Shown here in pieces: positions 6,393-13,481 of a stretch of 42,282 nucleotides of DNA. Both the position numbers and the translations under genes were made by a program. Numbering within the stretch: position 1 is the first letter of the stretch; every line of letters starts with the position of its first letter. Source of the stretch: Nitrosomonas sp. (GTDB lineage Bacteria > Pseudomonadota > Gammaproteobacteria > Burkholderiales > Nitrosomonadaceae); assembly GCA_021774195.1 (NCBI GenBank), contig JAJFJJ010000048.1, positions 1-42,282 on the forward strand, given 5' to 3'. The notes below the pieces were generated by a model. The model saw nothing but the letters and a program-made list of their open reading frames with translations, did no database searches and had not been told where the DNA came from.

Positions 6393-6476
6393 ATGATTAA
6401 ATCGAAGATGGCTTGGGAATTTATTTATAATTTTTTTAAACTTGTTGGAATTGATATTGGGATGCAGAAAGCATGA
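6393..6476 (+). CDS. candidate small ORF overlapping the ilvB start codon
   Basis: This 27-codon ORF, or 22 codons from the ATG at 6408, fills the gap between tldD and ilvB. Its stop overlaps the ilvB start as ATGA, the classic layout for translational coupling. The predicted peptide contains MAWEFIYNFFKLVGIDIG, a hydrophobic or amphipathic stretch with three Ile and one Val in the last 12 residues. Neither start has a clear ribosome site. It may be a coupling peptide or a branched-chain amino acid leader, or it may be chance. No known family was recognised. Confidence 0.3.
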   Translation: MIKSKMAWEFIYNFFKLVGIDIGMQKA

Positions 6477-11735: not shown

Positions 11736-11764
11736 TTGCACAAAAACGAAAAACTATTTATATT
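11736..11764 (+). promoter_or_regulatory. sigma-70 promoter for leuA leader
   Basis: TTGCAC (-35, 11736-11741) is followed by a 17-base spacer and TATATT (-10, 11759-11764). This is the best sigma-70 match in the 318-base pssA-leuA gap. Transcription would begin at about 11771-11773, at the first base of the ATG of the leader ORF. Confidence 0.6.
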
Positions 11765-11772
11765 TCACTCTT

Positions 11773-11859
11773 ATGTTAGTTACAAATCCAATCATTTTTT
11801 CATTCTATTCGTCGACTCCATTTAATCTGATGGCGTTTCTGCTGCGCCTTGCGCGCTGA
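11773..11859 (+). CDS. candidate leucine leader peptide upstream of leuA (leaderless)
   Basis: This 28-codon ORF lies 89 bases before leuA. It ends in FNLMAFLLRLAR-stop, with four Leu codons (CTG, CTG, CTG, CTT) among the last ten sense codons and another (TTA) at codon 2. A sigma-70-like promoter places the transcript start at or within two bases of its ATG. That would explain the absence of a ribosome binding site, making it a leaderless mRNA. A shorter version could start at 11830 (MAFLLRLAR). Leucine-rich leader peptides ahead of leuA are known attenuation devices in enterobacteria. A clear downstream terminator is not seen here. There is only an AU-rich 8-bp hairpin (TAAAATTC/GAATTTTA, 11889-11911) after a pyrimidine-rich stretch. 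Confidence 0.5.
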   Translation: MLVTNPIIFSFYSSTPFNLMAFLLRLAR

Positions 11860-11948
11860 TAAATTCCCCTCTTTTCTTTTCTTCGCACTAAAATTCTAAT
11901 TCTGAATTTTAATATCCATATAAATTTCTTCCTGAAGTGGAGAACAAA

Positions 11949-13481
11949 ATGCAAGATCACTTGATTATTTTTGATACCACCCTGCGTGATGGTGAACAAA
12001 GTCCGGGCGCATCCATGACAAAAGAGGAGAAAATCCGTATTGCATGGCAATTGGAGCGCATGGGGGTGGATGTAATAGAGGCAGGCTTTCCGGCGGCATC
12101 TAATGGGGACTTTGAAGCAGTTAAAGCGGTGGCTGATATCGTCAAGGGAAGTACTGTGTGTGGCCTCGCTCGTGCAATAGAATCTGATATTCATCGGACT
12201 GGAGAAGCACTGCGAGGTGCGGAATCGGCACGTATTCATACATTTATTGCGACATCGCCAATTCACATGAAAAAGAAATTGCGTATGTCGCCAGAACAGG
12301 TTATTACGCAAGCGGTAAAAGCGATAAAGTGGGCCTCGCAATATACGGATAATATTGAATTTTCTCCTGAAGATGCCGGTCGCTCTGAAATTGATTTCTT
12401 ATGTAAAATTCTAGAGGCAGTTGTTGAAGCCGGAGCTAAGACGCTAAATATTCCAGATACTGTTGGTTATACGATGCCTGAGCAATTTGGTAAGCTGATT
12501 GCTACGTTACGTGAGCGGATACCAAACTCCGATAAAGCAGTTTTTTCTGTCCACTGTCATAATGATTTGGGCTTGGCAGTCGCGAATTCTTTGAGTGCCG
12601 TCATGAATGGTGCGCGTCAAGTGGAATGTACCATTAATGGTCTGGGAGAGCGAGCCGGTAATGCATCGTTGGAAGAAATTGTTATGGCGGTTCGCACACG
12701 TCAGGATTTTTTCCCTTGTGATACAAGAATTGATGCCACGCATATCGTGCCGGCGAGTAAATTAGTTTCCGGAATCACGGGGTTCCCTGTGCAACCGAAT
12801 AAAGCGGTTGTGGGCGCTAATGCTTTTGCGCATGAATCCGGTATTCATCAAGATGGCGTGTTGAAGCACCGTGAGACTTATGAAATTATGCGTGCCGAGG
12901 ATGTGGGTTGGGGAGCAAACAAATTACTGTTAGGTAAGCATTCCGGGCGTAATGCGTTTAGGAGTCGTTTGCTGGAATTGGGCATTGAATTTGAATCAGA
13001 AGAGATGTTGAACAATACTTTTATGCGTTTTAAGGAGCTGGCGGATAAAAAACATGAGATTTTTGATGAAGATTTACATGCGTTGGTTTCAGATGAAGCT
13101 TTGGTATTGCAGGAACGTTACCGTTTGTTGTCACTTACCATACATTGCGAGACCGGAGAGATACCGTATGCACGCTTAATCATCTCGGATGATGGTAAGG
13201 AGTTGCAGGCGGAATCCGATGGCAGTGGGCCGGTGGATGCGACTTTTCGTGCGATTGAAAAGTTATTAAGTAGTGGTGCTGAGTTGCAACTGTTTTCGGT
13301 TAATAACATTACCAGCGGTACCGATTCGCAAGGTGAAGTAACTGTTCGTTTGCAGAATCGCGAACGTATTGTTAATGGGCATGGTGCAGATACTGACATC
13401 GTTGTGGCTTCAGCGAAAGCTTATTTGAGTGCATTGAATAAACTCAATTCCAAATTGGAGCGTGCACATCCGCAAGTATAA
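11949..13481 (+). CDS. leuA: 2-isopropylmalate synthase
   Basis: This is the first enzyme of the leucine branch, condensing acetyl-CoA with 2-oxoisovalerate. It has the HMGL-like TIM barrel with the N-terminal [16 protein letters not shown] signature, the metal-binding [13 protein letters not shown] region, and [19 protein letters not shown]. The C-terminal LeuA allosteric domain (roughly residues 390-510) binds leucine. I choose the ATG at 11949 (510 residues) over the track's GTG at 11937, because GTGGAG stands six bases before it. The long leader upstream, with a leucine-rich ORF, suggests regulation by leucine supply. Confidence 0.96.

Follow-up and report, generated by a model that had tools for sequence, protein, structure and literature searches.

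The leuA gene of Nitrosomonas sp. is preceded by a short leader open reading frame (ORF) with four leucine codons among its last ten sense codons, and comparison with related genomes makes it very probable that leucine codons control leuA through this leader. A more specific reading, which we regard as probable, is that a leucine-specific leader peptide would control leuA by ribosome-mediated attenuation, with Rho termination as its most likely form. The locus was studied in a window of 42,282 nucleotides (contig JAJFJJ010000048.1), and its parts are listed in Table 1. The first-pass annotation of this DNA had proposed a possible leaderless leucine leader peptide in front of leuA. That interpretation is largely supported by the sequence comparison, which also identifies a second conserved part of the leader, absent from the first-pass annotation: a GC hairpin at the end of the ORF, here called P2.

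Table 1. Features of the leader locus before leuA in the Nitrosomonas sp. window
Feature	Position	Strand	Remarks
Predicted sigma-70-type promoter of the leuA leader transcript, TTGCAC-17-TATATT	11736..11764	+	TTGCAC 11736-11741, TATATT 11759-11764
Leader peptide ORF, MLVTNPIIFSFYSSTPFNLMAFLLRLAR followed by the stop codon, 28 codons	11773..11859	+	ATG 8 nt 3' of the -10 box
Putative regulatory Leu codons CTG CTG	11839..11844	+	Positions -6/-5 counted from the stop
Additional Leu codons of the leader ORF	11827-11829 (CTG), 11848-11850 (CTT)	+
P2 hairpin, GCGC-CTTGC-GCGC	11844..11856	+	RNA-level selection, compensatory variants
Pyrimidine/C-rich, G-poor single-stranded tract 3' of the leader stop; candidate Rho loading region	11860..11888	+
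P3 hairpin, TAAAATTC-TAATTCT-GAATTTTA, AU-rich, without a proper U-run	11889..11911	+
GGAG, Shine-Dalgarno sequence of leuA	11939..11942	+	Sequence
leuA, 2-isopropylmalate synthase, 510 aa; predicted regulated gene	11949..13481	+	Homology and context

The genes of the region follow the order ilvB-ilvN-ilvC-psd-pssA-leuA, and the name leuA rests on homology and on this context; matches 82-90% identical were present in all 61 Nitrosomonadaceae genomes searched. The leader ORF ends in FNLMAFLLRLAR and is separated from the leuA ATG by 89 nt (11860-11948). P2 starts at the third base of the last CTG, and its last base adjoins the stop codon on the 5' side. The first-pass annotation had placed the promoter, the ORF with its leucine codons, the gap to leuA and, behind the ORF, an AU-rich hairpin (P3) and a pyrimidine-rich tract where we find them, and both of the latter are conserved parts of the leader. 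It had also noticed rightly that the ORF lacks a ribosome site, as there is no Shine-Dalgarno sequence upstream of 11773. Taken alone, the window gives little reason to single out this locus. A promoter scan of the single sequence found 2 sites against 2.4 expected in shuffles, which is chance level, and 28-codon ORFs are common in the window, so that the length of the leader ORF is by itself unremarkable and the significance of the leader rests on its conservation in relatives. No terminator-like site was found in the leader region in a scan of the window sequence (0 sites), no covariance model of Rfam release 15 matched the leader at gathering score, and the core pattern occurs once in its own genome, with no further copies. 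An overlapping TTG ORF (11736-11825) was set aside because the conserved frame is that of the leader ORF. Upstream of ilvB, a 22-codon frame (6408-6476) was checked and is not conserved. The stretch TTGGGATGCAGAAAGCATGAG (6455-6476) is conserved in several Nitrosomonas-like genomes and holds a four-codon ORF (ATG CAG AAA GCA TGA) that overlaps the ilvB start.

Sixty leuA upstream regions of Nitrosomonadaceae were read, and 59 of them carry an in-frame leader ORF of 27-32 codons whose length changes by whole codons; a frame not kept in relatives, which the first-pass annotation had named as grounds for its refutation, is the opposite of what was seen. The start codon is ATG, but GTG in two, and the ORF closes with CTG CGC NNN GNG CGC and the stop, giving the peptide end LLR-x-(A/V/G)-R; a shifted stop makes two of the 59 leaders two codons longer. 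Among the 59, L054 and L059 were assigned by eye and not by script. Nitrosomonas europaea carries the leader as MQFTEITPAFHPFRLTAWLYLTGRLLRLAR (L245). Counted from the stop, leucine stands at -6 in 55 and at -5 in all of the 58 sequences scored, encoded by CTG, CTA, TTA or TTG. The sole exception in the family (L043, genome G004) has a recognisable region in which the ORF is broken to two codons (ATGAAGTAA), and this genome is reduced, at 1.3 Mb.

The promoter recurs together with the ORF. The -10 box is TATATT in 57 of the 58 scored family sequences, TTGC is found at -35 in 55/58 family sequences and in 44/50 sequences of the wider order (described below), and the spacer is 17 nt in 56/58 and 40/50, respectively. 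The gap between the -10 box and the ATG is 6-10 nt in every family sequence (58/58) and 5-10 nt in all 50 order sequences, the latter figure not being independent because the start codon in the order set was partly picked by this gap. Promoter geometry of the leaderless type is seen in 108 sequences altogether (58 family and 50 order), and in 58/58 family sequences the -10 box occupies the position of a ribosome site, leaving no room for one before the leader ATG. From the distance between the -10 box and the ATG we infer that transcription starts at the leader ATG or a few bases upstream of it, giving a leaderless mRNA. Such mRNAs initiate weakly, without a ribosome site.

By the same kind of comparison, the leader is an order-wide element and is not confined to Nitrosomonadaceae. 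In 120 Burkholderiales genomes (order as defined by GTDB), 98 leuA upstream regions were examined, and about half of these have the leader before leuA. At least 46 of the 98 matched a promoter-plus-ORF rule, a few of them plainly not being the element; the rule matches together with additions read by eye gave a set of 50 regions for further analysis, which represent more than 20 families. Typical leader peptides in this set are MSNFIRIHTEFLLTAASGLALLLRFAR and MSHAGQPLPSLLTSLLLAGLLLRVRAH. A strict pattern matched 73 of 399 order genomes, against 2 for a reversed-pattern control. In a class-wide search, which sampled few relatives with a strict pattern, the genome of origin was the only match. 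A DNA pattern consisting of the -10 box, the ATG and the end TGCTGCGC-N5-GCGCTRA, with free lengths and no reading frame imposed, was run on about 85,000 species genomes. At least 119 stretches matched, nearly all of them Betaproteobacteria by title, including Nitrosomonas, Nitrosospira, Nitrotoga, Gallionella, Sulfuricella, Denitromonas and Methylophilaceae. Among the 80 loci listed, 79 are in frame, although the pattern is frame-free. The sequence further downstream could be read for 78 of them, and in 77 of these what follows is leuA. The one misfit, titled Synergistes (L233), is out of frame and inside another gene, and is a chance match.

About half of the order regions have no recognisable leader, some of them because leuA adjoins pssA almost without a gap, and some genomes without the element have a different kind of leader before leuA. 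In many of the order genomes free of the leaderless element, a small gene stands directly before leuA, whose product, resembling MQLDIERLIRDFGGPSALAEAF..., looks like a small DNA-binding protein; regions in which the leader is absent and the small gene adjoins the 5' side of leuA are L160, L161, L165, L166, L172, L174, L175, L179, L183 and L191. Judging from its sequence, this protein is a candidate alternative regulator.

Behind the leader ORF, the first 12 nt after the stop are C- or pyrimidine-rich and contain 2.2% G in the family and 4.5% in the order, and the tract 3' of the stop is predicted by folding to be about 72% unpaired. Over the whole leader C exceeds G, with a median percentile of 2.7% in the family and 0.9% in the order against the same loci; the leader of the Nitrosomonas sp. 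window alone stands at about the 8th percentile. This excess of C over G is no more than suggestive of Rho, and the tract together with the G-poor leader ORF is the candidate loading region. P3 follows about 30-55 nt 3' of the leader stop in 58/58 family and about 90% of order sequences. It is more stable than shuffles, which preserve base counts but not dinucleotides, and its stems differ widely among genera. Five or more U among the 8 nt after P3 occur in just 11/58 family and 4/48 order sequences, which bears out the earlier remark that a T-run terminator is absent. Pseudoknot-free folding of 106 leaders, in which the bases under a ribosome placed at the Leu codons or the stop were masked, revealed no consistent change in the pairing of the leuA Shine-Dalgarno sequence, the tract or P3, and no mutually exclusive antiterminator or Shine-Dalgarno switch was found in these folds.

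These results bear on two other ways in which the same leader could act. An unlikely one is that the switch operates on leuA translation or mRNA stability, so that a stalled ribosome refolds the leuA ribosome site, as has been proposed for the LEU element of Actinobacteria, or a cut site is controlled as in speF. The absence of an intrinsic terminator would fit such a switch, as would a possible pairing of GGAG with the pyrimidine-rich tract, and the Shine-Dalgarno sequence is mostly paired in the predicted folds. Its pairing partners vary among members, however, and placing a ribosome on the Leu codons shifts its accessibility by 0.01 on average, up in 12 and down in 9 of 106 leaders. Pairing of the Leu codons themselves with the Shine-Dalgarno sequence found no support in the 106 leaders, in which masking these codons does not make it accessible. 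Still harder to accept is that P3 forms an unusual intrinsic terminator, with a weak or absent U-run, whose formation is governed by the ribosome. The position and stability of P3 are kept in almost all members, its 3' arm is itself U-rich in the Nitrosomonas-like group, and two leaders of the order (L189 and L190, described below) bear a real terminator 3' of the leader ORF. Against this stand the rarity of U-runs already given, the lack of a competing antiterminator, the unchanged pairing of P3 with a ribosome on the Leu codons, and a distance of about 48 nt from the stall site, which is beyond ribosome contact. As an ordinary intrinsic terminator, P3 was rejected for most members because there are no U-runs.

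The end of the ORF carries a second signal besides its leucine codons. In the family, CGC is used for both C-terminal Arg codons without exception (116 of 116), against a share of 34% among the Arg codons of leuA, and the amino acid between them varies freely. The P2 hairpin (GCGC-N5-GCGC), and not the peptide, accounts for this invariance and for the conservation of CGC NNY GNG CGC. Compared with synonymous recodings, the natural stem of the family ranks among the most stable 4% (median), and the GC-rich order set shows a weaker effect, at 10%. The stem also survives base changes, as GCGT/ACGC in L150 and GCCC/GGGC in L075. In L149 a stem UUGCGC/GCGCAA is formed although the peptide ends in ALPAQK, several order sequences have UGCGCG/CGCGCA, and L133 has the stop inside the loop. 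Comparison at this level indicates that P2 is kept as RNA and that the leader end is under both coding and RNA constraint. The expectation of a C terminus conserved with synonymous changes therefore holds for the Leu codons, which do vary synonymously, and fails for the Arg codons, which are fixed as CGC by an RNA hairpin. A further hairpin within the ORF, 5' of the Leu codons (P1), is common but little more stable than synonymous recodings, a median of 20% of which are as stable in the family and 39% in the order; this weak advantage is why P1 was omitted from the parts of the leader.

Conservation of the leader ORF as coding sequence is supported by the comparative data. The ORF body gives pN/pS values of 0.18 for the Gallionella-like group, 0.56 for Nitrosospira and 0.75 for Nitrosomonas. 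The low value in the Gallionella-like group and the C-terminal LLR motif could also be taken to mean that the nascent peptide senses free leucine instead of charged tRNA-Leu, as an arrest peptide comparable to TnaC and SpeFL, which respond to tryptophan and ornithine. We consider this improbable: the residue after LLR is variable (L, P, F, C, H, R, A, S, G, D, I), amino-acid constraint on the ORF body is weak in Nitrosomonas, and P2, which persists in L149 with its different peptide end, accounts for the invariant Arg codons. Finally, a functionless chance ORF behind an ordinary promoter, which the chance-level promoter and the many 28-codon ORFs of the window might suggest, is refuted by the comparative data, as frame, position, C terminus and neighbouring gene are conserved order-wide.

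For ribosome-mediated attenuation at the leucine codons, the observations can be combined into the following scheme. From its promoter, transcription would begin at the ATG of the 27-32 codon leader ORF or no more than a few bases away from it. The ORF ends with at least two Leu codons followed at once by P2 over the stop, the C-rich tract, P3 and leuA. With abundant charged tRNA-Leu, translation of the leaderless ORF would run to the stop and the ribosome would depart, allowing P2 to re-form. With P2 re-formed and the C-rich leader exposed, transcription would end before leuA, most likely through Rho and with P3 as the pause site. If charged tRNA-Leu ran short, the ribosome would stall on the Leu codons and keep P2 open; covering the 3' part of the leader, it would break up the Rho loading region, and leuA would be transcribed. 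Another possible role of P2, for which it has the position and the conservation, is that of a transcription pause or protector hairpin; by pausing there, RNA polymerase may be kept in step with the first ribosome, as has been proposed for leuL. Some points temper this scheme. CTG, which is a common codon, makes up most of the Leu codons, and this counts against leucine-codon attenuation. The weak step is that a ribosome stalled on the Leu codons would reach only to about the stop codon and not to the C-rich tract, so that simple masking would be insufficient and the ribosome would have to split the Rho loading region rather than cover the tract. Rho is the best candidate because there is neither an intrinsic terminator nor an alternative structure, but as the termination step it is a tentative assignment, somewhat short of an even bet. 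More doubtful still, though worth stating, is the generalisation that these leaders form an order-wide and previously undescribed class of leucine attenuator in Betaproteobacteria, in which the stop lies in a GC hairpin, a nearly G-free tract follows and a leucine-dependent ribosome gates Rho; as part of this reading, and held just as loosely, the class would work without an antiterminator or intrinsic terminator.

Other arrangements were seen before leuA in the same order. In one Burkholderiales genus (L189 and L190), about 200 nt upstream of leuA, a Leu-rich ORF (MLMNFSPLTGLLLLALSLKLGAGKA in L189) begins about 6 nt after a -10 box and is followed by a true U-run terminator, with a possible competing pairing GCTTGGGGC/GCCCCAGC. 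Unlike the main leader, these two lack the LLRxAR end and possess a true terminator, and their sequences suggest an attenuator of the classical type that has a leaderless leader. With their real terminator, these two come nearer to the classical form and provide a precedent for leuA attenuation within Burkholderiales. Similarly about 200 nt upstream of leuA, L157 has a short ORF, MSNFSISLLLDVRHGQVW, with a strong intrinsic terminator (AACGGCCCG...CGGGCCGTTTTTG) close behind its end, possibly another leucine attenuator by its sequence. In other Burkholderiales families (L158, L159, L171, L177), terminator-like hairpins with U-runs stand shortly before leuA, and no obvious leucine leader was seen upstream of leuA in these four.

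We found no description of a leuA leader for Burkholderia, Nitrosomonas or Betaproteobacteria among the open-access papers that were searched. Leaderless leuA leaders have so far been documented chiefly in Actinobacteria; with the present leader they would extend to a large Gram-negative order, among whose members are ammonia oxidisers, iron oxidisers and methylotrophs. Its more than 100 natural variants allow the coding constraint on the Leu codons to be told from the RNA constraint on the stop-codon hairpin. Two questions also become testable with this leader: how a weakly initiating leaderless mRNA can sense charged tRNA, and what attenuates leuA in the absence of a visible terminator.

Among known systems, the leaders of Actinobacteria (Streptomyces lividans LeuL1, Corynebacterium; the LEU element) are leaderless leucine leaders before leuA without a typical Rho-independent terminator (PMC8079986, PMC1262725). 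Here as there, a row of Leu codons stands in a small ORF before leuA, a typical terminator is lacking, and the transcript is leaderless, which for the present leader is predicted from promoter geometry. The LEU element, however, has short peptides whose Leu codons are predicted to pair with the leuA ribosome site in a pseudoknot, whereas the ORF described here has 22-48 codons and a GC hairpin over the stop, with no ribosome-site switch predicted, and no sequence relation to the actinobacterial leaders is evident. Enterobacterial leuL (Salmonella, E. coli), for which a pause hairpin has been described near the peptide end (PMC9291695), likewise encodes a leader peptide before leuA, with Leu codons towards its C terminus and a hairpin at the same place. 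It differs in that here there is no Shine-Dalgarno sequence, no antiterminator/terminator pair and no U-run. In E. coli tnaC, as in Salmonella orf34-speF, Rho-dependent control acts through a leader ORF, and the position of the ribosome decides on premature termination. Rho control through a leader ORF has been demonstrated for Salmonella orf34-speF (PMC6386406). With both of these the leader shares a leader ORF, the absence of an intrinsic terminator and C-rich unstructured RNA at or after the stop; unlike them, it has no leader ribosome site, its stall would be on Leu codons 5' of the stop and not at the stop itself, and the part of Rho is deduced from sequence features. Although their defining features do not support membership in either the leuL or the LEU group, the leader is best read as working like both of them.
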